Source of the DNA: Alkalispirochaeta americana
GTDB taxonomy: Bacteria > Spirochaetota > Spirochaetia > DSM-27196 > Alkalispirochaetaceae
Assembly: GCF_900156105.1 (NCBI RefSeq)
Contig: NZ_FTMS01000005.1
Span: 62,001-126,000, forward strand
DNA length: 64,000 nucleotides
Reading direction: 5' to 3'
In this document: positions 8,396 to 23,418 of the stretch, piece by piece
Layout: every line of letters begins with the position of its first letter
Numbering within the stretch: position 1 is the first letter of the stretch
The notes under the pieces: model-generated
Database searches by the model: none
What the model saw: only the letters and a program-made list of their open reading frames with translations
Told to the model about the DNA's origin: nothing
Program-made: the position numbers and the translations under genes

Positions 8396-10213
8396 ATGGA
8401 TCGACCGGAATCGTTTTTTCTTGCACCGGCTCTCTTCCTCCTTCTGACTCTACCGTTGCCGGGGCAGAACCAGGAAGATTTTCTCCTCCAGGAGGTCCTC
8501 TGCTTTCGCGAGGTCCAGGGAAGTCAGGCTCCGGCGGTCGAAGAGCCCCTTCTTCTTCAGGAACCTCTCTTTCTTGATGAGGCAGCCCTCAGAATCCTTT
8601 TCTATCCCGGCCACGAGAGGGACCTCAACAGCGAGATCCACCCCGGGAAAGAGCATCCTGGAAGGAATGAGTCAGAACCCTTCGGGGAAGCCCGGGAACT
8701 GGAGAGACTCCCTTACCACTACTCGTCCCGGTCGTTCAGGGGAGCAATGTACCGCATTGTTCTGCCACCAATCACAGTGGACAGCGGAACAAGCCCGGCC
8801 CTGAAGCTGGGACACGTGGTCGACTTCGATACGGTCTACGTGAACGGCTGGTTTCTTGGACGCAACGGAGGCGTTTCCCTGGGCGGAGCCGACGAAGCTT
8901 TCGGCATCTCCCGCCTCTATCGAATCCCCGCAAACCACCTCTATCGGGACAGGGAGAATATCATCTCGATCTACACATCGGCCCGGCCCTGGGGCCAGGC
9001 AGGAACCTACTCGCGCCCCCTCCTTGGGCCATATCATCATTTTACGCGGCAGCGGGCCGTGACCGATACGATCAAATATATGCTGACCGCCTGCTACGCC
9101 ATGACGGGGCTTTTTTTCCTCACCCTCTACGCCCGTCGAAGATCTTTGGCAGAGCACTTTTTTTTCGGACTCTTCTGCCTGGCCGTGGCAGTATATTTTT
9201 TCTTCCGGATTCAAACGAGTCTGGTATTTCTTGATAACTACGCCAGAGCTGCCCGCTTTGAACTTGCTTCTCTCTGGGTAGCAATCCCCTGCTTTATGCT
9301 CTTTGTGATGCAGTACTTCAAAGAGCCCGTCAGAGCGATCCACGCCGGATACCTGGCCTTCTCCGCGATATGCCTGGTCCTCGTTCCTCTGCACCCCAGC
9401 ACTCTCTTTCTGACCAGGATCAATTTCTCGGTAATTCAGCTCTCCTGGGTTCTTCCGCTGGCGGTGGTCATGAAAACACTCTTCAAGAACTTCCGCAGCT
9501 CCCCCGCAGCGTATCTTATGTTTGTCTCTTCCTTGATCATGGTTTTCCTCACGATGGTAGACATCTATATCAGCAGAAACCATAGGGGAAGCAGCAACAT
9601 GGCTTTCATTACCCAGTACGCCCTTTTCCCCTACACCATGGCCATCGCTCTGGCCACGATTCATAACCTGGTGCGTCTCTATGACGAGGTGGAGCGCCTC
9701 ACCGTGCTGGCCCACCGCGACAGCCTGACCGGGGCGTTTGCCCGGCATCAGGGAGAAAAACTTGCTGCAGCCTTACTGGATCAAGCAGCCCGAACCTCCA
9801 AACCTGTAAGTTTTCTCGTTCTTGACCTGGATCACTTTAAGTTGGTGAACGACACCTACGGTCACGCTGCAGGGGATACCGTTTTAAGGCGGATCGGAGA
9901 ACTCTTGAGAAATACCTTTCGCAAGAAAGATCTGATCTTCCGCTTCGGCGGCGAAGAGTTTTGCCTCCTCCTGCCGGACACATCGTGTGCCGAGGCCCAG
10001 GCCATTGCAGAACGGCTCAGGAGGACGGTAGAATCCCTGAAAATTCCCGAAGTCGATCCCGGGCTCACTCTGAGCGCGAGCATCGGAATCTCGGTCTACC
10101 CCGAGTGCGGGTCAGCCCAGGAGGAACTCTTCCAGCGGGCCGATCAGGCCCTGTATACTGCCAAGAAGCAGGGTCGGAATATGGTGGTCTGCTGCCCCAC
10201 ACAGCACCCCTGA
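8396..10213 (+). CDS. 7TMR-DISM diguanylate cyclase (GGDEF)
   Basis: Membrane receptor that should make c-di-GMP in response to an external ligand (605 aa). A signal peptide (residues 1-23, ending LPLPGQ) precedes an extracellular region of about 200 residues whose VYVNGWFLGRNGG stretch resembles the jelly-roll sugar-binding fold seen in glycosidases. Seven hydrophobic segments between about 225 and 425 match the 7TMR-DISM transmembrane module. A short coiled segment leads to the GGDEF domain: RDSLTGAF, DLDHFKLVNDTYGH and the catalytic GGEEF at 518-522. An RxxD product-inhibition site (RKKD, 509-512) lies exactly five residues before GGEEF, so the enzyme is predicted active and feedback-inhibited. 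It heads the sensory island and may be leaderless (TATAAT six bases before the ATG). Confidence 0.93.
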   Translation: MDRPESFFLAPALFLLLTLPLPGQNQEDFLLQEVLCFREVQGSQAPAVEEPLLLQEPLFLDEAALRILFYPGHERDLNSEIHPGKEHPGRNESEPFGEARELERLPYHYSSRSFRGAMYRIVLPPITVDSGTSPALKLGHVVDFDTVYVNGWFLGRNGGVSLGGADEAFGISRLYRIPANHLYRDRENIISIYTSARPWGQAGTYSRPLLGPYHHFTRQRAVTDTIKYMLTACYAMTGLFFLTLYARRRSLAEHFFFGLFCLAVAVYFFFRIQTSLVFLDNYARAARFELASLWVAIPCFMLFVMQYFKEPVRAIHAGYLAFSAICLVLVPLHPSTLFLTRINFSVIQLSWVLPLAVVMKTLFKNFRSSPAAYLMFVSSLIMVFLTMVDIYISRNHRGSSNMAFITQYALFPYTMAIALATIHNLVRLYDEVERLTVLAHRDSLTGAFARHQGEKLAAALLDQAARTSKPVSFLVLDLDHFKLVNDTYGHAAGDTVLRRIGELLRNTFRKKDLIFRFGGEEFCLLLPDTSCAEAQAIAERLRRTVESLKIPEVDPGLTLSASIGISVYPECGSAQEELFQRADQALYTAKKQGRNMVVCCPTQHP

Positions 10214-10302
10214 TCTGACACAGCAGCTGTTCCCCCTGTCGCATCACCCCCCAAGGCATTATTGTTCCTCCCTACTTGTCCCTCCTCGTGGTATTATCAT
10301 CC

Positions 10303-12300
10303 ATGAAAGGGCTACACCGGGAGAAGAAAAATTTGGCCACCCTACGAGACACCCTGAAGCGCAACACCCGCCCCCCGCAGGGCCGATACATCCTCATCCT
10401 GGGGCTGGTCATCCTCGCCGGCACCTGGTCTATCACCTTCTGGGTGATCCGGGATGATTACCATCTCGAGATCAGCCGGGGCAAAGACTATGCTCGCAGC
10501 GTGGCCACGGTTCTGGAAAAACACGCCGCCGGAACGTTCTCACAAATCGAGTCGTCTCTTCTGCTGCTTCGGGAAAATTGGGAATCGGACATCAGCCCTG
10601 AAGAAATGAGCAGCCTCCTGGAAATTTTTGTGGCCTCCCGCAGCAATCTCTTTAACCTGATATCGGTGATTGATTCTTCCGGAGAGGTAGTTGCAACAGA
10701 TCAGTCTATTTTTGAGCCGACCTTCAGCGGCGACCGGCCCTTTTTCCTGCACCACCACCAATCAACAGGAAGATCCCCCCATCTGGGAGAACCCACCCTG
10801 GGGCGTCTCACGGGAAGGTGGTACCTCCCGGTAAGCCTGCGCCTCGAAGATTCCCGAGGGACTTTTGCAGGGGTTCTTCTGGCCTCGGTGAACCCTTTTT
10901 ATTTCTCCGAGCTCTTTCGGGATCTCCAGATGGAACGAGGATCCCTTATCTATCTTTTCGACCGTCAGGGGACTCTATACACGGGACTGCAGGATGGCAA
11001 TGAACTTGACCTGACCCGAGACCTCACCCGTCTTTCCCTCAATTCTGATCTCCCGGGACTTGGCCGAAACCCCTTTTCCGGCGTGGGCGCGAGCGATCTG
11101 GATCAGATCCAACGCATCAAACACCGCCGTCCAGTGAGAGACCGGGAAATCTTTGTAGCGGTAGAAACAGACTATGCCCTCTGGATGCAGCGGTTCTATC
11201 TGCGACGCAACTACTACGTGGGTATGCAACTTATCTTTTCCGCAGCCGTTGCCCTGGTTATTCTCCGTCTGCGTCACCTCCTGGCCGCCCGGGAGGCAGC
11301 CAACCTGGAGCTGGACAGGTTCTTCTCCTCGGCCATCGACCTGCTCTGTATAGCCAACACCGAGGGAACGCTTCTGCGAGTTAACCGGGAATGGGAGAAG
11401 GCCCTGGGATACCCCGTGGAGGAAATCGAAAACAGGAAATTTCTTGATTTCATTCATCCTGACGATCTAGCAAAAACACAGGCCACTATAGAAGATTTGA
11501 AAACCCAAGGAACAGTGGAAAACTTCATTAACCGCTATCAACGGAAGGACGGCCAGTACCGGCACATCGAATGGCGCACGAGACCCCACGGGGACCTGCT
11601 CTACGCAGCAGCCCGGGATATCACCGATCGAATCGAAACAGAGCAACGCCTGCGTGCAGCAGAAGAGCAACTCCGGCAGCAGCTGGCAGAGAAAGAAACA
11701 CTCCTGGGCGAACTGAATCACCGGGTAAAGAACAACCTCTCCGTGGTAGCAGGCCTTCTCAATCTGCAGGCCGAGGAGATATCCTCACCCGAGGAGGCGG
11801 TGGCCGCTCTTGCCAAAAGCAGGGATCGAATCATGGCCATGTCCGTGGTACACCAGATGCTTTACTCCCGAAAAGACTGCTCCAGCATTTCCATGCGGGA
11901 CTACATTGAGGAACTTTCACACCACCTGGCCTGCGCCCATTCAGGCCAAAGGGTCTCCCTTGAGCTTGACCTTGAAGACCTCTTCGCCCGGATCGAGACG
12001 GCGATACCCCTGGGAATTATACTGAATGAACTCATAACAAATGCCTTCAAGCACGCCTTCGCCGATCCACACGCAAGAGCAACAATCCGGATAACCCTCG
12101 CGGCACACCCCGGTTTCTGGAGACTTACCGTTTCCGACAACGGTCCGGGCTTCCAAGACGATGCACGGAGAAGCTCCTCGCTGGGACTCACCCTGGTGGA
12201 AATGCTGATGAAGCAGCTCAAGGGAACCCTCACGATCCTCACCGACGAGGGCAGTTTTTTTCAACTCGACATACCGGAAACGGTCGTCCACGAGTCCTGA
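10303..12300 (+). CDS. Sensor histidine kinase, Cache + PAS + HisKA_2/HATPase
   Basis: Membrane histidine kinase of the HisKA_2 (HWE-related) class, 665 aa from the ATG at 10303. A TTG at 10276 could add nine residues, but TATTAT at 10292-10297, five bases before the ATG, argues for the shorter form. Order: first membrane helix (about 27-48), a periplasmic PDC/Cache-like sensor of about 260 residues, a second helix (YYVGMQLIFSAAVALVILRL), a PAS domain with its PAC tail (SAIDLLCIANTEG to HIEWRTR), then the H-box ELNHRVKNNLSVV with His473, followed by an ATPase domain with N-box LNELITNAFKHAF, G1 SDNGPGF and the G2 region SSLGLTLVEML. No receiver domain or response regulator lies next to it, so the phosphoacceptor must be elsewhere. 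Confidence 0.92.
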   Translation: MKGLHREKKNLATLRDTLKRNTRPPQGRYILILGLVILAGTWSITFWVIRDDYHLEISRGKDYARSVATVLEKHAAGTFSQIESSLLLLRENWESDISPEEMSSLLEIFVASRSNLFNLISVIDSSGEVVATDQSIFEPTFSGDRPFFLHHHQSTGRSPHLGEPTLGRLTGRWYLPVSLRLEDSRGTFAGVLLASVNPFYFSELFRDLQMERGSLIYLFDRQGTLYTGLQDGNELDLTRDLTRLSLNSDLPGLGRNPFSGVGASDLDQIQRIKHRRPVRDREIFVAVETDYALWMQRFYLRRNYYVGMQLIFSAAVALVILRLRHLLAAREAANLELDRFFSSAIDLLCIANTEGTLLRVNREWEKALGYPVEEIENRKFLDFIHPDDLAKTQATIEDLKTQGTVENFINRYQRKDGQYRHIEWRTRPHGDLLYAAARDITDRIETEQRLRAAEEQLRQQLAEKETLLGELNHRVKNNLSVVAGLLNLQAEEISSPEEAVAALAKSRDRIMAMSVVHQMLYSRKDCSSISMRDYIEELSHHLACAHSGQRVSLELDLEDLFARIETAIPLGIILNELITNAFKHAFADPHARATIRITLAAHPGFWRLTVSDNGPGFQDDARRSSSLGLTLVEMLMKQLKGTLTILTDEGSFFQLDIPETVVHES

Positions 12301-12372
12301 TACCCCCGAAAATCGTCCTTCCCGATAATCCTGTACGATTTACTCCCCTCTTTCGCGATATATCCTCTCTTG

Positions 12373-12401
12373 TTGCGGATGCTCCGGGAAGAGCGGATAC
12401 T
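12373..12401 (+). promoter_or_regulatory. Sigma70-like promoter for the first MCP
   Basis: TTGCGG - 17 bp - GATACT, about 70 bases upstream of the ATG at 12474, giving a conventional leader. The -35 starts TTGC like several other promoters in the window. A near repeat CTCCGGGA occurs in and just after the spacer. Confidence 0.5.
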
Positions 12402-12473
12402 CCGGGAGAAATTATCCCCCTGTAATGCTTTTCTTTCTTCCGCAAAAACCAACCCCTTCAGGGAAGGACGCCC

Positions 12474-14468
12474 ATGGTCTACAAGAAGAACCAAACCGAT
12501 GAAAAAGCGACTGATGAAAAACCCGGAACCGCTCCTGGGGGATGGCGGAGAATGAAACCCCTCAGGATAAAAACGTTGAAGCTGCAAACAAAACTCAGCG
12601 CACTTCTCTTTCTGTTAACGTCCCTGATTATAACGATTTTTTCTGTAACAGGCTTCATCTCTTCCAGAACGCTTTCAAGCCAGATGGTTTTTCAGGGACT
12701 CCGCCAGGACCTCTCTTCACTCCAACAGAGCGTAGAAAACTGGGCTGAAAAAAAACTGGTCCTCATAGATAGCGCAGGACAAATCTTTGAAACCCCCGGC
12801 ATGTATAAGACTCTGCGACAGTTCGGTCCGGGCCATACAAACCACCATCCCTTTCTTCAATCCTCAGGTTACGACGATGCCGTGGGCACACTCTATTTGG
12901 CATTTCACGATGGCCTTCACACCACCGGGAGCGCCTGGAACATCCCCGATGACTACGATCCACGGGAACGGGGTTGGTACCAAAGCGCGGTGCACCAGGA
13001 AGGACCAGGTTTTTCCGATTCCTACGTCGATGCTCACACAGGAAATCTTGTCATAACTGCCGCGCGCCCCCTTTTCGATCAGGAGGGAGACATCTTTGGT
13101 GTGCTGGCAACAGACATATCCCTGGAGCAGGTGACAGAAGCTATCTCGGCGTACTGCCTTGGTGACGGAGGATATGCCTTTCTTCTGAATGAAGAAGGAA
13201 ATCTGCTGGCTCACCCCGATGAAAACTTGGTTGGAACTCCCCTCCAGGAGAATGACGGTTACAAGGATGTGGCCAGAATGCTCCTCGGCCATCCCGATCA
13301 GGAAGACCCGGAAGAAGTCTTCTCTGCTTCAATCAACGGTTCTCCCCACATCATTCGCTCCGTGTCATTAGCTGATTTCGGATGGCGCCTGGCCATGGCC
13401 GTTCCCCGGGAAACCCTCCAGGCCCCCTTGAGAAGGCTTAACGGTCATTTCATTTTTCTGGGAATTATCTCGCTGGCTACGGTGCTTTTTGCCTCTTTCA
13501 TGGTCGGCCTTCGCCTGACCAAACCAATAAAGGAACTTTCAAGCTATCTCGACGTTCTTGCCGGGGGCAGACTTGATTGTGCCGTCCCATCGTGGACAGA
13601 AAAACGGGAAGACGAAATAGGAGTCCTGGCCTCAAGCACCCGCACGCTCCAGCATCGCCTCTCCGGCGTGGTCTCGTCGATTCGGGAAATCTCACATCGT
13701 GTGAACAGGGATAGCGGAAGCCTTCAAAACATCGGTCAAGAGGTATCGAACGGTGCCGGGAACACCGCTCACGTGGCCCAGCAGCTTTCGGAGGGGGCTT
13801 CACAACAAGCAGCTTCGGTGGAGGAGGTCTCCTCGGCCATGGAAGAGATGGCGGCCAACATACGGCAAAGTGCCGATAACGCCGAGGCCACCGAAAAAAT
13901 CGCCCTCGAGTCATCCCAAAAGGCACAGCAAAGCGGCCAGGCCGCCGCAGAAGCCGTGGAAGCCATGCGGCAAATCGCCGACAAAATCGGCATCATCGAG
14001 GATATCGCCCGGGAAACCAACATGCTCTCCCTGAACGCCGCCATTGAAGCAGCCCGGGCAGGAGAACAAGGCAAGGGCTTTGCCGTTGTCGCCGCGCAGG
14101 TGCGAAAACTCGCAGAAAACTCTGCCAGCGCCGCACGAGAAATCGGAACTCTCAGCGCCCGGTCCATGGAAACTGTCCAGAACGCGGGGGAACTTCTGGA
14201 CGAAACCGTCCCGGGGATCAGGAAAACTGCTGATTTGGTCCAGGAGATCACCGCTTCGGCCAGGGAGATGAGCGCTGGGGCACGACAGGTAAGCGAAGCC
14301 ATGGTCCAGCTCGATACGATGGTGCAGCACACCTCTTCAGCCTCCGAGGAAGTGGCTGCCACAAGCGAGCAACAATCGGTACAAACAGGCCAGCTTTCTC
14401 TGGAAACAGGAAAACTCCGGAATCTTGCCCGGGAGTTGGAGCAACTGGTGGACTTTTTCTCGACCTAG
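12474..14468 (+). CDS. Methyl-accepting chemotaxis protein (dCache, HAMP)
   Basis: Transmembrane chemoreceptor, 664 aa. The ATG at 12474 is preceded by a purine-rich GGGAAGGA; a second in-frame ATG at 12552 would remove 26 charged residues and cannot be excluded. A membrane helix (about 41-60) is followed by a double-Cache ligand-binding domain (about 65-310), a second helix ([20 protein letters not shown]), a HAMP linker and the cytoplasmic signalling domain. The Cache domain has RGWY, then 15 residues on a Tyr with Tyr-x-Asp (SYVD), then an Asp in ATDIS, which fits the published amino-acid-binding dCache_1AA pattern. The signalling hairpin tip has the conserved [20 protein letters not shown]. 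Bases 13806-14329 are identical to part of the next MCP. No CheR-binding pentapeptide is seen. Confidence 0.94.
13806..14329 (+). repeat. 524-bp direct repeat, copy 1 (MCP signalling domain)
   Basis: By base-by-base reading this block is identical to 17242-17765 (offset 3,436 bp). Flanking sequence on both sides diverges at once. It encodes the methylation helices and hairpin tip in the same frame in both genes, and the third MCP of the window encodes similar protein with clearly different DNA, so the identity indicates recent gene conversion or partial duplication. Confidence 0.95.
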
Positions 14469-14532
14469 CCTGTGCCCGGAAGGCTTGTATGATCAGAATA
14501 ACTTCCCTCCACGGGATATCAGGAGCTCTGCA

Positions 14533-15912
14533 ATGATGATTTCGATTCCCCAAGTCTTTTGCCTCTTGCTGCTGCTTGCGGGATATCTTTTCCTGCTGTG
14601 GCGGAGAGCGCTCTGTTCAAGACAGAAGCTATACAGGGATACTCTCACCGGCCTGCCCAGCCGCACAGCCTTTGACCGGGATTATCTGCACCGACGGAAT
14701 AAAGCTGCGCCGGAAGCAGTCATCTTTCTCTCTGTCAATAATCTCCGCAGGGTGAATGAACTCTTCGGATATCGACAAGGCGACGCGATGCTCCAAAAAG
14801 CATCACGACACATAGAAGGTCTTCTTCCACCTTTGGCAGAGCTGTACCGCTTTTCCGGAGAGACCTTTGTCATTACCTGTCCCAGGGAGTACCACCCGTC
14901 ACTTCTGGCCCAGACGATTCTGGAAGGCCTGGGAGAGCTTTCTCCCGAAGGGACCGCACCCTTTACCCTCCTTTGTACGGCGGGGATCGCCCGGAAGGGG
15001 CAGGAAGGACTCCATACCGTCGATGATCTTGTTCGCGGGGCAGCTGCGGCGAATGCAGAATCACAGCAGATCAAGGAGCCCTTCCTCTTCTACACAAAAA
15101 CTCTGAAGACAACAGCTCTCCGGAAAGTCCACATTGCCCGCCTGCTCTGCGAGGCTGTGGAGGAGGAGTCCTTTACCCTGCACTACCAGCCGATCCACGA
15201 TGGCGATGGAGAAATCGCTGCCCTTGAAGCGTTATTGCGCTGGAGCCCGCCACCCCTGGGTCCGGTGTCGCCTGCCGAGTTTATTCCCCTGGCGGAGTCA
15301 TCGGGGCTGATCACCCCTTTAGGCGATACGGTGATTCATCGAGTCCTTGAAGAAATATCTTCGCTTCCCCCGGCTGTTCGTCCCCCGGTCCACATCAATA
15401 TATCACCAGTGCAGATGCAATCCTCTCATCTCCTGGAAACCCTAGACCAGGCCACCCAAAAAAGGGGAATCACCAGGAGCGGGATAGTTTTGGAGATAAC
15501 AGAAAGCCACTTGATTAAAGAACTTCCGGCGTGCAACCGCCTTCTGAAAGAACTCCGCCGAAGAGGATACAAAATAGCACTCGACGACTTTGGCACCGGC
15601 TTTTCCTCGCTTCAGTATTTGCAACATCTTCCCGTGGACACCCTCAAAATCGACAGATCCTTCTTGCAATACCGACAGGCACCAGAACGAACCTCCCGAA
15701 TTCTGTCTGCCCTGAACGATCTTGGAAACCATTTACATCTTTCGGTAATTGCCGAGGGTCTGGAAACGGAGGAACAGTTTCATCTGCTTCGAAGCATCGG
15801 CTTTCGTCAGTTCCAGGGATATTTCTTTTCCCGTCCCAAACCCCTCGTTGATCTGCTCCCCCTGTTTTCGGGGAGCCCTCTCTCTCGAGAAACAACACCG
15901 GCAGAACATTAA
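14533..15912 (+). CDS. GGDEF-EAL protein, predicted c-di-GMP phosphodiesterase
   Basis: Membrane-anchored c-di-GMP enzyme, 459 aa. The ATG at 14533 is chosen because AGGAG lies seven bases upstream and it opens directly into a membrane segment (SIPQVFCLLLLLAGYLFLLW); the frame is open further upstream but that stretch overlaps the end of the preceding MCP. The GGDEF domain (about 35-190) keeps the TLTGLPSR start but the active-site loop reads RFSGETF instead of GGDEF/GGEEF, so it is probably catalytically dead and perhaps regulatory. The EAL domain has EALLRW (Glu232), LHYQPI, the DDFGTGFSSLQYL loop, LKIDRSF and IAEGLETEEQ, so degradation of c-di-GMP is the likely activity. It sits between two MCP genes, inside the interval bounded by their identical repeat. 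Confidence 0.9.
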   Translation: MMISIPQVFCLLLLLAGYLFLLWRRALCSRQKLYRDTLTGLPSRTAFDRDYLHRRNKAAPEAVIFLSVNNLRRVNELFGYRQGDAMLQKASRHIEGLLPPLAELYRFSGETFVITCPREYHPSLLAQTILEGLGELSPEGTAPFTLLCTAGIARKGQEGLHTVDDLVRGAAAANAESQQIKEPFLFYTKTLKTTALRKVHIARLLCEAVEEESFTLHYQPIHDGDGEIAALEALLRWSPPPLGPVSPAEFIPLAESSGLITPLGDTVIHRVLEEISSLPPAVRPPVHINISPVQMQSSHLLETLDQATQKRGITRSGIVLEITESHLIKELPACNRLLKELRRRGYKIALDDFGTGFSSLQYLQHLPVDTLKIDRSFLQYRQAPERTSRILSALNDLGNHLHLSVIAEGLETEEQFHLLRSIGFRQFQGYFFSRPKPLVDLLPLFSGSPLSRETTPAEH

Positions 15913-15969
15913 AACGAGACACAAAAAACAGAACCAACCAAAACCCAGAACCAAGGAGAATCACAGCTC

Positions 15970-17946
15970 ATGAACATCTTGAGACAATCTACTCAACAAA
16001 GCAGACGCGGTTTCAGAACGCTCCAAACGTCGATGATTATCGTTTTCGGGGCATCTACTGCTCTTATCCTTCTTATGACAGCGGTCATTCTGCTGCACCA
16101 TGTCCGGGCTACGCTGACAGACGAGACGGAAGAATCTCTCCTGGAGCTGGCTCAGACAGCAGGAGTACTTATGAACGACCGTTTTCAGGACATGATCACA
16201 TCCCTGGATTCTGTCTCCCGCCAGGATATTCTCACCGATGGAACACCCTGGGCAGAGATTTCCGAAAACCTGCAGGACCAGGCGGAAGCCCTGGGATACG
16301 ATACCTTCGGACTGGTTGACCTGGAAGGAATAAACCGGCGAACCCTGGACCAGGCCGTTACGGACGTATCCGATCGCGATTACTACCGGCTGGCCCGCAG
16401 GGGCCAACCGAACGTGTCAGAGGTTCTTATCAGTCGGGCCACGGGGGAACCAATTATGATCGTGGCCGTACCGGTGATGCGCCAGGGAGAAATCCAGAGT
16501 GTACTCATCGGCGTGCGCGATACAAGAGTTTTTGAAACCCTGGTGAACACCGTGGGGATCGGGGAGCGAGGGTACTCCTACGTTATTAACGATGAAGGAA
16601 CAATTGTGGGACACAGGGATCACAAGCTGGTCCAGGAACGGTGGAACGCAATGGATGAAGCGCGCTCGAACCCTGACTATAGGGAAATGGCCCGTGTACT
16701 GGGCCATGCTGCCCAGAGGGAGTCGGGAACGGGCCGGTACTTTTATCAGGGAGAGGAGCGCCTCATGGGATACGCTCCCATTGGAGAGACAGGATTTTCC
16801 GTTCTTGTAGGATCCTACTGGCACGATATCATCGCGCCCCTGCGGTTGTTGCAATTTATCTTTGCCGGTGTGGCAATAGCGGGTCTGCTCCTGGGAACAG
16901 CCACTATCGCCGTTGTGAGCAGGACAATTACGAAACCAATCACAGATCTTGTCCCGGTGGTAGAAAAAATTGCACGCCTCGATCTCTCTGTGCGGGACCT
17001 CGCGGCTCACGAGATTTCGAGAATGGAATCGGTTCGATTGCGCCGTGATGAGATCGGTGAAATGGCCCGAAGCATAGCAAAAATGGAAGAAAGCCTGCGC
17101 GATTCCGTCACCAGAGTTCAGGCCGTGGGTATCGCTGTGACAGGAAAAACCGAAGAGCTTGCCGATATCGAGCGGCTGGTATCTCAGGGAGCTGGCCAGA
17201 TGACAACTGTGGCAGAAGAACTTTCCCAGGGATCTTCCGAGCAAGCAGCTTCGGTGGAGGAGGTCTCCTCGGCCATGGAAGAGATGGCGGCCAACATACG
17301 GCAAAGTGCCGATAACGCCGAGGCCACCGAAAAAATCGCCCTCGAGTCATCCCAAAAGGCACAGCAAAGCGGCCAGGCCGCCGCAGAAGCCGTGGAAGCC
17401 ATGCGGCAAATCGCCGACAAAATCGGCATCATCGAGGATATCGCCCGGGAAACCAACATGCTCTCCCTGAACGCCGCCATTGAAGCAGCCCGGGCAGGAG
17501 AACAAGGCAAGGGCTTTGCCGTTGTCGCCGCGCAGGTGCGAAAACTCGCAGAAAACTCTGCCAGCGCCGCACGAGAAATCGGAACTCTCAGCGCCCGGTC
17601 CATGGAAACTGTCCAGAACGCGGGGGAACTTCTGGACGAAACCGTCCCGGGGATCAGGAAAACTGCTGATTTGGTCCAGGAGATCACCGCTTCGGCCAGG
17701 GAGATGAGCGCTGGGGCACGACAGGTAAGCGAAGCCATGGTCCAGCTCGATACGATGGTGCAGCAAAACGCTGCGGCCGCCGAAGAGGTGGCTAGTACCA
17801 GCGAAGACCAGTCCGGCCAGACCGAGAACCTCTCACTTTCGACCCGGGAGCTCCGCAGTCAGGCTCAATCTCTGGCCGAGGTTGTCTCCCGCTTCACTCT
17901 TTCCGCGGAGCTGCACAGTCAATCTAAGGACGACCACGAGGCATGA
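15970..17946 (+). CDS. Methyl-accepting chemotaxis protein (Cache, HAMP)
   Basis: Transmembrane chemoreceptor, 658 aa, with AAGGAG 11 bases before the ATG. First membrane helix at about 18-40, then an extracellular Cache-type sensor (about 45-280) with [12 protein letters not shown] and [11 protein letters not shown], a pattern different from the amino-acid motif of the upstream MCP, so a different ligand is likely. The second helix (about 295-318) leads into HAMP and the signalling domain. Residues 425-598 are encoded by the DNA block that is identical to the upstream MCP; after it the sequence switches abruptly to [16 protein letters not shown]. The C-terminus (KDDHEA) shows no docking pentapeptide. 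A 12-bp hairpin follows at 18004. Confidence 0.94.
17242..17765 (+). repeat. 524-bp direct repeat, copy 2 (MCP signalling domain)
   Basis: Identical to 13806-14329 over its whole length. Both copies are in the same reading frame of their genes, so recombination between them would delete 3,436 bp including the GGDEF-EAL gene and leave one intact chimeric MCP gene. Confidence 0.95.
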
Positions 17947-18003
17947 AGAATCGCTTCCCCCGGCTCGTCGGGAGCAGGAGGGAAGTTTCTAAATCATCAA
18001 CAC

Positions 18004-18039
18004 CCGGAAAGGCCCTGGAGTTCCCAAGGGCCTTTCCGG
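18004..18039. terminator. Hairpin between convergent MCP and cheW
   Basis: Perfect 12-bp inverted repeat CCGGAAAGGCCC / GGGCCTTTCCGG with a 12-base loop, lying between the plus-strand MCP and the minus-strand che operon. No U-tract follows on either strand, so it is either a U-less bidirectional terminator or an mRNA 3'-end stabiliser. The rest of the 209-bp gap (17947-18155) holds nothing I recognise. Confidence 0.6.
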
Positions 18040-18155
18040 AGTTGGAGAATATCAGTCACATCGTTATGTAAAACTCGATTCTACTGCCAGAAGCGTGTCG
18101 GCAGGGTATCGGGATGGATGACCTTGCGGTCGATACAGCCAGACCACGTTCTGAC

Positions 18156-18713
18156 TCATTCCTCTTGCTCGGCCGAGGCATTTAACCGGCAGATCTCCTG
18201 CACGCTGAAAACTTTATCGATATCAAGGATGATAATAAACTCATCATTCCTCTTTCCCATACCCTGAATGAAGGAATTTTCCAGAACGGTTCCGAACTTT
18301 GGCGCAGGTTCAATCGAATCTGCCCCAAGATCAATTACCTCCTGAACAGAGTCGGTCAGAGCCCCCAGAACTGCGGCCTCTCCCTTCACGGTGACTTCCA
18401 TTACTATTATGGCCGTATCGATGGTTTCCTCGGTTCGATCCATCCCGAACTTTTGTTTCAGATCGATCACGGGAACAACCGTTCCCCGCAAGTTGATTAT
18501 TCCCCGAACGTATTCAAGGGTCTTGGGGACCTTCACGATGCGAGGTAATTCCAGGACTTCCCGAACCCGGTCGACCTCCACACCGTATTGCTCTCCTGCC
18601 ACGGTAAAGGTCAATAGTTGCACGTCCTGCCTCACAGTTCCTTCCAGAGACACGTTTCTCAAATCCTTCCCGTCCGAGGGGTTCTCGACGGGAGTTTCTC
18701 TCATTTGCTGCAC
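18156..18713 (-). CDS. cheW: Chemotaxis coupling protein CheW
   Basis: Scaffold protein that couples chemoreceptors to the CheA kinase (185 aa, typical CheW length plus a short N-terminal extension). The CheW fold is clear: QLLTFTVAGEQYGVEVDRVREV, the loop VKVPKTLEYVRGIINLRG, VVPVIDLKQKFG, and the closing segment GMGKRNDEFIIILDIDKVFS. It is the last gene of the minus-strand MCP-STAS-cheA-cheW set and its start overlaps the end of cheA by 13 bp. A second in-frame ATG three codons in (18704) would shorten the overlap and is equally possible. Confidence 0.94.
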   Translation of the reverse strand: MQQMRETPVENPSDGKDLRNVSLEGTVRQDVQLLTFTVAGEQYGVEVDRVREVLELPRIVKVPKTLEYVRGIINLRGTVVPVIDLKQKFGMDRTEETIDTAIIVMEVTVKGEAAVLGALTDSVQEVIDLGADSIEPAPKFGTVLENSFIQGMGKRNDEFIIILDIDKVFSVQEICRLNASAEQEE

Positions 18714-20812
18714 AGGAGCTCCTCCTTTGTGTATTCCATGGAAAAGTTATTTTTTGATATCTCTTCAATAATTTCTCCATCTACCGATAGAGATTCAAGA
18801 AGTCTGGGAATATCAAGAATGAGAGAGATATCCCCATCTCCCAGAATCGTCGAGCTGCTGATCTCCGCAACTCTTCCCAGAAGACCCTTCAGGGGTTTGA
18901 TCACCACCTGGTTCTGGCCGATGATCTCGTCCACTACGATTCCTCCTCTGTGAAACCCTGAATCGACCACAACTACATGGGCCAGCTCGGGATGACTCCC
19001 CCCGATTCCCAAATGCCCCCTTAAATCAACCAAGGGCAGAGGCTTGCCCTGGTGATGCAGGATCCGCTGCGTTGAAGAGAGCAGTTGCCGGGCCTGCGGC
19101 AGGATAAAGCATTCCTTCACATCGTTCAGGTGGATCGAGAAATGGTGATCCCCCAGGCGGACCTGCAAGCTGTCGATAATCGCCAGAGTAAGGGGAATTC
19201 GAATGGTGAAGGTCGTTCCCTGGCCCTCGCGAAAATCAAGAAAGAGATGACCCGCCAGTTTTTCCACTTCGGCAAGAACGGCGTCGGTGCCTACGCCCCG
19301 ACCGGAAACGGAGGTTACCCGGGAAGCCGTTGAGAATCCTGGCCGGGAGAGCAGGCCCAGCACTTCATCATGCAATAGCGAACTGTCAGGAGAAAGAAGC
19401 CCCTGGGCGACGGCTTTCTGGCGAACCTTCTCTATGTCGATTCCCGCCCCATCGTCGGCAACGTCTATCTCGACCTGGGAACCAACATATCGGGCTCGCA
19501 AGGAGATCTTTCCCCGCGAGGATTTTCCCCGTTTCATGCGGTCCTGAGGCGACTCAATGCCATGATCGATGCTGTTGCGGATCATGTGAACCAGACAAGA
19601 TTTCAGGGAATCCATCACCGTTTTGTCCAGCTCGGTTTCCCCGCCTTCAATCTCCAGATCCACCTCTTTGCCCATCTCCACCGATAGATCTCTCACAATC
19701 CTCCGGAAACCGACAAACATATTCTGCAACGGAACCAGGCGCATTCCCATGATCCGCTCACGCAGATCGCTGACAAGAAAATCAAGCTCTTCGCTGATCT
19801 CATCAAGAACAGGATCCTTCACCTCCCCCACGTGCAACGACAGGCGCTCTTTCAGGGTAACCAGTTCTCCCACAAGATCAACGGCAGCATTCACTTTTTG
19901 ATCCGATACAAGAAGCGCTGCGGCCTGAGACGTCTGATCGCGAGTTTTTTTCTGCTTCTGCAGAAATTTCTGCTCTTCCAGGGCTGTCTCCAGCTCTTCT
20001 TCATCGACAATGCCTTGCATTACTGCCAGCTCACCCAGCTTTTTGTTCTGTTTCTGTGCCTCCAGAAGCTCCTGGATCTGCTCGTCCGTAATGTGACACC
20101 GCCTCTGGAGAATCTCTCCCAACAGGGGAGTTTTATCTCCGTCCCAATCGAAGGGGATTGTCTCCACCGAGAGAGTGCTCCCGGATTCCACAAAAAGGAA
20201 AACCTCCCGTACCGATTCTTCGCTTTTCGGCGTTACCAGAAGAATATCAAAATCCAGGTAACACAGGGTGGGATCGAAGGAATCCCAGGAGGGCAACCGA
20301 ACGTCCTGAGCGCTGATCTGCACAGGACCCAACGATGCCAGTTCGTGGAAGAGCCCCCTGAGACGCGTTCCGTTCTGAAGTATTCCGGGGGCGGGATGAA
20401 AGCGCAGGTGAAAGACCTGTTTCCCGGAACAAGGAGCACTGTCTTCCCTAGTCATACCACAGGCTGCTTCTGTTACTTCCTGCCACCCCTCCACATGGGG
20501 CGGCAGATCGGGATCTTCCAGCATTGCCGTGATTCTATCCAATCCCGCAAGGGACTCCTCGATCACTCCCCTGGTAACGGTCATCTTTCCTGCCCGAATA
20601 CTATCAAAGGCGTTTTCCATGGCATGGGCCTGGGCCGAAATGTTCTCAAAACCGAACATGGCTCCGGACCCTTTCAGAGTATGCATGTTTCGAAAGATCC
20701 TCTGGAGAAGATCTCCGTCCCGAGGAGCCTCCTCCAGGGAGACCAAGTCCTGCTCCAGGATTTGAAGAAGAGAACGGGATTCCTGAAAAAACAAGTCCGG
20801 CGAAAAATCCAT
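18701..20812 (-). CDS. cheA: Chemotaxis histidine kinase CheA
   Basis: Cytoplasmic kinase that reads receptor state and autophosphorylates, 703 aa. The ATG at 20812 is chosen because it shares one base with the stop of the upstream STAS gene (TGATG) and opens directly into the HPt domain; the frame is open for 33 more residues upstream but these overlap STAS. Order: HPt with HTLKGSG (phospho-His44), a ferredoxin-like domain (about 133-222, FHLRFHPAPGI), a linker (about 230-283) made of two LGExxxxxxxIxxExxxxxLExQ units resembling the N-terminal domain of GspE/MshE ATPases, a dimerisation helix pair (VNAAVDLVGELVTLKERL), the ATPase domain with N-box VHMIRNSIDHGIE and G-box DDGAGI, and a C-terminal CheW-like domain. 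It lacks an obvious classic P2. No cheY, cheR or cheB is in the window. Confidence 0.94.
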   Translation of the reverse strand: MDFSPDLFFQESRSLLQILEQDLVSLEEAPRDGDLLQRIFRNMHTLKGSGAMFGFENISAQAHAMENAFDSIRAGKMTVTRGVIEESLAGLDRITAMLEDPDLPPHVEGWQEVTEAACGMTREDSAPCSGKQVFHLRFHPAPGILQNGTRLRGLFHELASLGPVQISAQDVRLPSWDSFDPTLCYLDFDILLVTPKSEESVREVFLFVESGSTLSVETIPFDWDGDKTPLLGEILQRRCHITDEQIQELLEAQKQNKKLGELAVMQGIVDEEELETALEEQKFLQKQKKTRDQTSQAAALLVSDQKVNAAVDLVGELVTLKERLSLHVGEVKDPVLDEISEELDFLVSDLRERIMGMRLVPLQNMFVGFRRIVRDLSVEMGKEVDLEIEGGETELDKTVMDSLKSCLVHMIRNSIDHGIESPQDRMKRGKSSRGKISLRARYVGSQVEIDVADDGAGIDIEKVRQKAVAQGLLSPDSSLLHDEVLGLLSRPGFSTASRVTSVSGRGVGTDAVLAEVEKLAGHLFLDFREGQGTTFTIRIPLTLAIIDSLQVRLGDHHFSIHLNDVKECFILPQARQLLSSTQRILHHQGKPLPLVDLRGHLGIGGSHPELAHVVVVDSGFHRGGIVVDEIIGQNQVVIKPLKGLLGRVAEISSSTILGDGDISLILDIPRLLESLSVDGEIIEEISKNNFSMEYTKEELLCSK

Positions 20813-21198
20813 CAGGCTCCACCTTCCTGGCTCATCCCGGCCAGGGGGGCCCTCTCCAACCGGGAAAATTCCTCTTCGGAGCAAGCAAGGTCGGGGAAAT
20901 AATGGTGGCAACCAAGATCAATGATGGCCTCTTTCACCGCCGAAGACATGAGCGACATGAAATCAACGCGGATTCCCCTGGAGAATGCCTCCCGATCGAG
21001 GATAACAAGAATCTGCACAAAAGGAAGTCCTGTACTTGTCACGCCTCGGGTGTCAACCTGAATCGTCTGTTCGCGTTCCGCCCTGTGAAGGGTCTCATGA
21101 AACTCCGCAAAAATTCGTCCGGCGTCGCGGAGGGAAATATCTCCAGCGAAGGCAATTCGAAAGCCCCGGGGGGTCGCTTCAACAGATATATCTGCCAT
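20812..21198 (-). CDS. STAS-domain protein
   Basis: Stand-alone STAS domain, 128 aa, of the type found in anti-sigma-factor antagonists and in regulatory partners of kinases. The fold is visible as ISVEATPRGFRIAFAGDISL, the beta strand and loop QTIQVDTRGVTSTGLPFVQI (the loop position normally holding the phosphorylated Ser carries T-S-T), and a C-terminal helix. It lies between an MCP and cheA, with only three bases between the MCP stop and its ATG, GAGGAG inside the MCP end as ribosome site, and a TGATG overlap with cheA. The context says it works in this chemosensory pathway; the partner is unknown. Confidence 0.85.
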   Translation of the reverse strand: MADISVEATPRGFRIAFAGDISLRDAGRIFAEFHETLHRAEREQTIQVDTRGVTSTGLPFVQILVILDREAFSRGIRVDFMSLMSSAVKEAIIDLGCHHYFPDLACSEEEFSRLERAPLAGMSQEGGA

Positions 21199-21201
21199 CT
21201 T

Positions 21202-23418
21202 TTACATCTCCTCAAAACTGTAGTCCAACTCATCCTGACTCAGAAGCGCCTGCTGCTCCAGGACCGATATGCCCCGCTCCTCCCTTGTATGCGAAGAGCG
21301 CCCTGGCAGGGCGGGTTTCCTGTCGGGAGAAACCTTCCGGGAGGGTGATTCTTCGGGCTTCCTGGCTTCTTCGGGCTTCCTGGCTTCTTCGGGCTTCCTG
21401 AATTCCTCAGGTTCTGACAGGGCCTTTGGTTCCTCGACCTTCCTGTCCTTCCCATGCTCACCAGATTCTCCTGAGTCTCCTCCGCGAGAACGGCCCAGAA
21501 GGGTGAAATACTCGGCAATCCCTTCAAGCTTTTGCGCCTGCTCAAGGAGAGCCTGGGAGGTTTTTGCCAGGGCATCGGTCTGCCCCGACTGCTCCTCACT
21601 GGTGGCAGCAACCTCTTCGGAAGCCGATGCTGTTTGCTGGACTACCTGGTCCAACTGCAGCACCGCCTGACTCACCTGGTCTGCGCCAGCACTCATTTCT
21701 CTGGTGGATGATGTTATCTCCCGAACCAAATTAGCTGTTTTCTCTATCTCCGGAACGGTTTCATCTAGCAGGTTCCCGGCTTCCTCGGCGATGCGCACCG
21801 ATTCAGCGCTGATTTGGCGTATCTCCCTGGCTGCGTCACCGGAGTTCTCCGCCAGTTTTCTCACTTGGGCAGCCACAACGGCAAAGCCCTTTCCCTGCTC
21901 TCCGGCCCGGGCCGCCTCAATGGCGGCGTTCAGGGAGAGCATATTTGTCTCCCGGGCAATATCTTCGATAATGTTGATCTTTTCGGCGATCGTCTTCATG
22001 GCAACTACGGTATCTGACACAGCAACACCACTACGCTGGGCCTTTTCCGCCGAAAGGACCGCTATCTGCTGAGTTGTCTCGGCATTGTCTGCGCTTTGCC
22101 GAATATTTGCGGCCATCTGCTCCATGGACGCCGAAACCTCCTCCACCGAGGCGGCCTGCTCCGAAGCCCCCTGGGATAGCTGCTGCGCCACGGCCGCCAT
22201 CTGGGAGGTTCCTGAAGAAACATCGCTGCTTATTTTTGCCAGCCCCCGGCTACTGGCAGTTATTGCCTGGGCTCCGTCTTGAATGTTCCCCACAATCTGG
22301 TTCATCTTTGCGCTTATAGCTCCCTGAGCCCGAGCGAGATCTCCCCACTCATCGCGTTTTCGAAGGTAGTACTGCTCGTACTCGGAGGAAAGATCCCGAG
22401 TCAGGTCCCCCCTCGCATATTCCTGGGCCTGATCAACAAAATCTTTCAGAAGCAATGCCGTACTTCGCGCCACAAGGAAAGCAGTAGCCACAACGGCCAG
22501 GACTGCCAGGACGACCAGCCCCACAATAACCCAGGAGATCCGCACCAGAGGAGCGGCCAGGTCAGAATAGGGCAACAGGTAAGCCACAGACCAGTTGGGA
22601 GACCCGGGAACGGGTGCATAGATTGCGTGATATCGCTCCCCTTCAGGGTTTCGATAATCGCCCCTGCCAGAAAGGCCCTGCAGGATTTCCCGGGCTATAG
22701 AGTCCAACCCCTGGTATCCGTCGGCTTGGGCGATGTTCAGACTAAGTACCAGGGCAGACTGTGCATCACCGATGATCATTCCCGTGCCGTCTACAACGGA
22801 CCCCCGGCCGTGACGGCCAAAGCGCATGGCCCGGGTAAGATCACCCAGAGCTTCCAGGGTAACAGAGGCTCCAAGAATACCCGTGACCTCGCCCTGGCTA
22901 TCCCGCAGGGCCTGAGCGACCACGGCTATTGGATTTCCCGTGGCCACACTCCTCATTCCCTGGCTCATAGCGTAGTCCCGACCCTCCTGGTAGATAGCCC
23001 GGACGTAATCCCGGTGAGAGAGATTTCCCGTGAGTCCGTCGCTGGTCATAAAATCGCCCGACGGGTCCACAAAAAAGAGATTTTCGAACTCTTCAGGAAT
23101 CGTCTCGTGTCTTCGAAGAACTTCCTGAATAATCCGGTGGGGTTCTCCTGTCTGAAACTGTTCTCCCCGGGAAATCTGGCGGACCGTGTTCAGATGCCCC
23201 TCCAGCCATCGTCCTGCCTCGGAACTGCGGGCATCCACAATTTCCCGGGAGAGTTCCTCGACGGTGCCATTCTGGATCTGCAGGATTTGCCAGAGGAGCA
23301 CGGCTCCCACAAAAAAGAGAACGCCCGCCGAGACACCTCCAAAGAGGAGGGTCATCTCTGTTCTGATTGTCTTGAAGCCTCGCCACCGATAGCGCCATTT
23401 TTTTTCGCCTGTTCCCAC
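21202..23418 (-). CDS. Methyl-accepting chemotaxis protein with tethered C-terminal peptide
   Basis: First gene of the minus-strand chemosensory operon; 738 aa, GTG start with GGGGAGG seven bases upstream. Membrane helix at about 25-47, Cache-type extracellular sensor to about residue 290, second helix ([20 protein letters not shown]), HAMP, then the signalling domain with [20 protein letters not shown]. Its signalling DNA is not identical to the two plus-strand MCPs. After the coiled coil comes a charged, proline-containing tail with hexapeptide repeats ([12 protein letters not shown]), then basic stretches, ending in [14 protein letters not shown]. The tail layout resembles receptor tethers that carry an adaptation-enzyme docking peptide, but the terminal peptide resembles the CheY-binding N-terminus of FliM (LSQDEIDALL) rather than NWETF. 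Confidence 0.92.
21352..21405. repeat. Three 18-bp tandem units in the MCP tail
   Basis: Unit TTCGGGCTTCCTGGCTTC twice exactly, third copy differing at three bases. On the minus strand each unit encodes a hexapeptide of the K-P-E-E-A-R type in the flexible tail, so copy number changes would keep the frame and only alter linker length. Confidence 0.85.

Follow-up and report, generated by a model that had tools for sequence, protein, structure and literature searches.

The window analysed here, a 64-kb stretch of the genome of the soda-lake spirochaete Alkalispirochaeta americana (3.31 Mb, a 65-contig draft; congeneric with Alkalispirochaeta alkalica DSM 8900), contains a forward-strand run composed of a diguanylate cyclase gene (DGC), a PAS-histidine kinase gene, the receptor gene MCP1, a gene for a protein with a degenerate GGDEF and an EAL domain, and a second receptor gene, MCP2. 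Opposite this run, cheW, cheA, a STAS protein gene, and a third receptor gene, MCP3, are encoded on the reverse strand (Table 1). Both MCP1 and MCP2 pass the curated Pfam cut-offs for dCache_1 and MCPsignal; they are two different dCache receptors, located close to each other and in the same orientation within a chemotaxis/c-di-GMP gene cluster. The cyclase gene (from 8396) and the EAL gene (from 14533) lie within the same forward-strand gene run as the two receptors, and at the corresponding locus of A. alkalica the cyclase gene is kept and the EAL gene is absent. The genes for c-di-GMP synthesis and breakdown at 8396-15912 may hence be expressed together with those for the receptors.

A pair of repeats (LGEIL..ITDEQIQELLEAQK / LGELAVMQG.VDEEELETALEEQK) is found in CheA at residues about 225-340, between the Hpt and the kinase part, and is also present in the CheA of A. 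alkalica and of G012, a closed single-contig genome of the same order. By eye the pair resembles the c-di-GMP-binding MshEN type, an unproven likeness for which Pfam returned no MshEN match even at E ≤ 10.

Table 1. Features of the receptor locus, in window positions, and of the receptor pair in the G012 genome.
Feature	Positions	Strand	Basis
DGC (GGDEF diguanylate cyclase)	8396-10213	+	
PAS-histidine kinase	10276-12300	+	
MCP1, 664 aa; dCache_1 sensor, MCP signalling domain, short tail	12474-14468	+	Pfam dCache_1 75.6 bits, MCPsignal 115.4 bits
First copy of the identical block (MCP1 codons 445-619; GEQG hairpin tip at residue 530)	13806-14329	+	exact match
tail1 of MCP1 (C-terminal methylation helix)	14330-14468	+	A. 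alkalica locus without tail1
tail1, EAL gene, and sensor2 (2,912 bp), absent from A. alkalica	14330-17241	+	single alignment gap
Membrane-anchored GGDEF (degenerate, SGETF)-EAL protein	14533-15912	+	Pfam EAL 214.7 bits, GGDEF 55 bits
MCP2, 658 aa; dCache_1 sensor, HAMP, MCP signalling domain	15970-17946	+	Pfam dCache_1 86.8 bits, MCPsignal 116.4 bits
Second copy of the identical block (MCP2 codons 425-599)	17242-17765	+	exact match
tail2 of MCP2; its A. alkalica orthologue is the tail of the one MCP at the locus	17766-17946	+	alignment
CheW, convergent with MCP2	18156-18713	-	Pfam CheW 116.2 bits
CheA	18701-20911	-	Pfam Hpt, HATPase_c, CheW
MCP3, third receptor of the cluster, internal control	21202-23418	-	core 71% identical to the block
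G012 MCP pair, MCPsignal parts (locus C1:2746001-2757000)	C1:2750649-2751113 and C1:2752534-2752998	same strand	

A preliminary description of this DNA had reported an identical block, in frame, in two neighbouring MCP genes that otherwise differ and flank an EAL gene, and each of these points holds. The two copies agree at 524/524 positions at an offset of 3,436 bp, and no other 60-mers are repeated anywhere in the window. At the block edges identity drops at once to 0.77 and 0.67 per 30 bp and then to about 0.3-0.6, and beyond them the sensors and tails of MCP1 and MCP2 stand at paralogue distance. Both copies are in frame, since both start at a codon boundary ((13806-12474)/3 = 444 and (17242-15970)/3 = 424). 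Spanning about 85 and 89 residues on the two sides of the hairpin tip, the block begins, as we assume from the general methylation-site consensus, at the N-terminal methylation helix and ends just before the C-terminal one; bounded by these two helices, it therefore corresponds to the signalling core. Such identity is a real outlier among the MCP pairs of this genome: exact matches in the other pairs formed by its 27 MCP genes (351 pairs in total) reach 30 bp at most, the second-best DNA match to the block stands at 71%, and the remaining MCP tips are no more than about 71-75% identical. Among the sampled A. alkalica MCP loci (190 pairs) the longest exact match is 38 bp.

The intervening gene, listed as an open reading frame from a TTG at 14425, has an ATG at 14533 that is preceded by AGGAG. 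Alignment to 4rnh showed that its EAL domain keeps the catalytic motifs EALLRW, LEITE, DDFGTG, KIDRSF, AEGLE, and QGYFFSRP, as expected at the sequence level of an EAL-type enzyme, and the protein is a probable c-di-GMP phosphodiesterase. The GGDEF signature reads SGETF, with which the domain does not qualify as an active diguanylate cyclase. Loss of this gene would plausibly raise c-di-GMP.

The two copies are separated by no fourfold-site difference (0/92), whereas the A. alkalica block differs from theirs at 39/82 comparable fourfold sites; the copies are 100% identical to each other and 82% identical to the A. alkalica block. The block is thus a sharp-edged, silent-site-identical tract within divergent paralogues, over which the paralogues are closer to each other than to their orthologues, a pattern by which gene conversion is recognised. 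Because selection at the protein level cannot keep silent sites equal, recombination must have made the copies equal, in line with the homogenisation that the preliminary description had proposed. Recent homologous recombination as the explanation of the identity is supported by these sequence comparisons, and we infer gene conversion as its route. A simple Jukes-Cantor estimate places the most recent homogenisation in about the latest 5% of the time since A. americana and A. alkalica split. In a single genome, one recent conversion and recurrent conversion would look alike.

The strongest evidence comes from A. alkalica, whose locus is colinear with the window at 7748-30000 except for one gap and contains exactly one receptor, in which sensor1 is joined to tail2 without the tail1-EAL-sensor2 segment. 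One block copy and this segment together amount to 3,436 bp, the length that a crossover would take out. The one A. alkalica MCP gene at the locus aligns to 12627-14379 at 74% and to 17230-17910 at 80%, and its sensor shares 70% of amino acids with that of MCP1. Its pre-tip helix scores 156 to MCP1 vs 66 to MCP2, and its tail alignment scores 164 to MCP2 vs 98 to MCP1, with 36/50 amino acids identical to tail2 vs 23/46 to tail1. Comparing the tails with further MCPs made the pairing of tail and sensor no clearer than the A. alkalica match. No orthologue of the EAL gene or of sensor2 was found elsewhere in A. alkalica. The two species share 81.2% ANI (PMC13286283), consistent with the 74-80% identity of the aligned pieces of the locus. 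We favour reading the A. alkalica locus as the crossover form, with the front of the first receptor and the tail of the second.

Taken together, the history that we regard as probable is one of conversion-homogenised cores in MCP1 and MCP2 with an occasional crossover, of which A. alkalica represents the product (by loss, as we favour), without any programmed switch. Homologous recombination between MCP1 and MCP2 would recently have made the signalling cores identical by gene conversion, over a part that opens with the first methylation helix and stops short of the second, and the sensors and tails would have stayed different. Over evolutionary time, the same homology would now and then resolve as a crossover, and an unequal crossover between the direct repeats could have cost A. 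alkalica tail1, the EAL gene, and sensor2.

Two other accounts of the identical cores have to be weighed against recombination. That purifying selection alone holds them identical might be suggested by the place of MCP tips among the most conserved proteins, but this explanation has next to no chance of being correct and is ruled out by the silent sites, which are as identical as the rest of the block here and differ widely in A. alkalica. Moreover, an identical core is not required for function, because MCP3, the receptor next to the same cheA, shows free divergence, with 29% of bases different from the block. Alternatively, two similar, non-identical tips could have been collapsed during assembly and one consensus written twice, a concern that any draft in 65 contigs raises. 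We consider such an artefact very unlikely: a collapse needs nearly identical copies, whereas the other MCP tips of the genome are far below this level; both MCP genes are open and complete; and the outer flanks are colinear with A. alkalica. A comparable case also exists in the closed G012 genome, where the cytoplasmic parts of two adjacent MCPs have a stretch of about 1.1 kb in common, with 614 bp matching exactly, which argues against an effect confined to a single draft assembly. Like MCP1/MCP2, the G012 pair consists of neighbours on one strand whose sensors are unlike and whose cytoplasmic parts are homogenised, but it differs in having no gene in between and in its longer block, which contains a few differences and reaches the protein end. 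Judging from this second pair, homogenisation may readily affect MCPs that lie side by side, and the findings as a whole point to same-strand MCP neighbours as general hot spots of recombination.

As for the difference between the two species, a deletion in A. alkalica and an insertion in the A. americana lineage both fit. The locus is carried by these two species only, with no polarising outgroup (sensor1 was found in 2/393 phylum genomes, A. americana and A. alkalica), and polarisation through cheA in 16 relatives and through the G012 locus gave no polarity, in the latter case because only mcp3-STAS-cheA is kept there, without MCP1, the EAL gene, and MCP2. In the insertion scenario, a piece or circle bearing tip-tail1-EAL-sensor2 would have recombined into the tip of one ancestral MCP (sensor1-tip-tail2), for which the one-gene state of A. 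alkalica is a fitting ancestor; a single crossover into the tip yields exactly such an anatomy, and the inserted tip leaves a direct repeat on both sides, whose identity would be the residue of that recent event. However, perfect repeats would result only from a donor tip that already matched the host tip, so that this scenario, too, calls for conversion or a donor of the same species, and no donor was found: in the 393 phylum genomes sensor2 has no close homologue (best 33%) and the EAL protein no match at E ≤ 1e-70, and plasmids offer no close match to sensor2 (at most about 30%). The composition of the piece is native-like as well, with GC3 values of 0.565 for the EAL gene and 0.578 for sensor2 vs 0.556-0.589 for sensor1, cheA, and cheW, codon scores of both inside the range of their neighbours, and no mark of foreign origin in either measure. 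Import of foreign DNA via a plasmid was rejected on the grounds of this composition and the lack of a close plasmid match for sensor2. Insertion is therefore held to be unlikely, though not far-fetched, and we infer a deletion because one common event suffices, no donor was found for the EAL gene or sensor2, and the composition is native-like. The preliminary description had predicted that recombination would remove 3,436 bp and create a chimeric receptor; the sensor1-tail2 receptor of A. alkalica agrees with the predicted product, but insertion accounts for it as well, and the deletion itself is thus favoured rather than established.

The same description had further proposed a natural switch, in which cells delete the 3,436-bp unit, exchange the receptor tail, lose the EAL gene, and so couple receptor choice to c-di-GMP. 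The 524-bp direct repeats are indeed in frame, their crossover product calculated from the coordinates is an intact 678-aa chimeric receptor, and a related species, A. alkalica, is in the deleted state. Despite these attractions, a programmed or phase-variable switch is extremely improbable and was rejected for want of reversibility and of a recombinase. Judging from the anatomy, deletion between direct repeats would lose a 3.4-kb circle and be irreversible within a lineage; Pfam scans of ten neighbouring proteins revealed no recombinase, and 12000-20000 is free of inverted repeats of at least 40 bp. In addition, no population variant is known, the one-gene state is a difference between two species at about 81% ANI and not one within a population, and the free divergence of MCP3 likewise speaks against a switch. 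The product would also keep sensor1 and lose sensor2 with the EAL gene, which is no choice between equals. Any rise in c-di-GMP would follow from a rare deletion and does not in itself testify to regulation.

A broader reading of adjacent MCPs with a common core would see in them a recombination assembly line, in which conversion maintains an exchangeable core and crossovers, frequent enough to be detected, give viable sensor/tail chimeras without the c-di-GMP gene between the receptors. We regard this as very improbable; if true, it would mean standing variation in the receptor set and in c-di-GMP level within populations. The homogenisation and occasional crossover preferred here belong to a known kind of process, the reshuffling of receptors by recombination over evolution, and nothing basic in chemotaxis is changed by the finding. 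Its value is that an in-frame identical core in one species and a fused receptor in its sister form a clear snapshot of receptor reshuffling, and that the A. alkalica receptor, as a natural sensor1/tail2 hybrid, allows one to ask whether MCP cores exchange freely between methylation helices.

E. coli tar-tap resembles MCP1/MCP2 in that the two MCPs are adjacent on the same strand; loss of tap has been reported in the E. coli B2 phylogroup (PMC12623472), and 1,099 of the 5,375 genomes that gave at least one match lacked a place covering 80% of the pair. Unlike the A. alkalica locus, however, the two genomes inspected have tap cut internally, tar whole, and no chimera. The pair was accordingly ruled out as a precedent for a deletion chimera, and these two natural tap deletions illustrate that a deletion beside an MCP does not always yield one.

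A closer relationship exists with Campylobacter, whose receptors were the only cases retrieved when the literature was searched for gene conversion in MCPs. In Campylobacter jejuni, the group A receptors Tlp2, Tlp3, and Tlp4 combine divergent dCache_1 sensors with identical signalling domains (PMC9769880). Campylobacter Tlps recombine extensively, and an inversion of about 92 kb has been proposed to proceed via homologous recombination between the conserved C-terminal DNA of Tlps (PMC6433261). Tlp11/CcrG is a receptor of mixed origin that looks like a domain swap (PMC5080441). These receptors share with MCP1/MCP2 the dCache_1 architecture, unlike sensors, identical signalling domains, and recombination. 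The Tlps, however, lie far apart and bound the invertible region, whereas MCP1 and MCP2 are direct neighbours in the same orientation, share the core only and not the tail, and do not bound an invertible element, the block copies being in direct orientation; a crossover between them deletes 3.4 kb where the Campylobacter one inverts. MCP1/MCP2 is thus the direct-repeat counterpart of Tlp recombination in Campylobacter.
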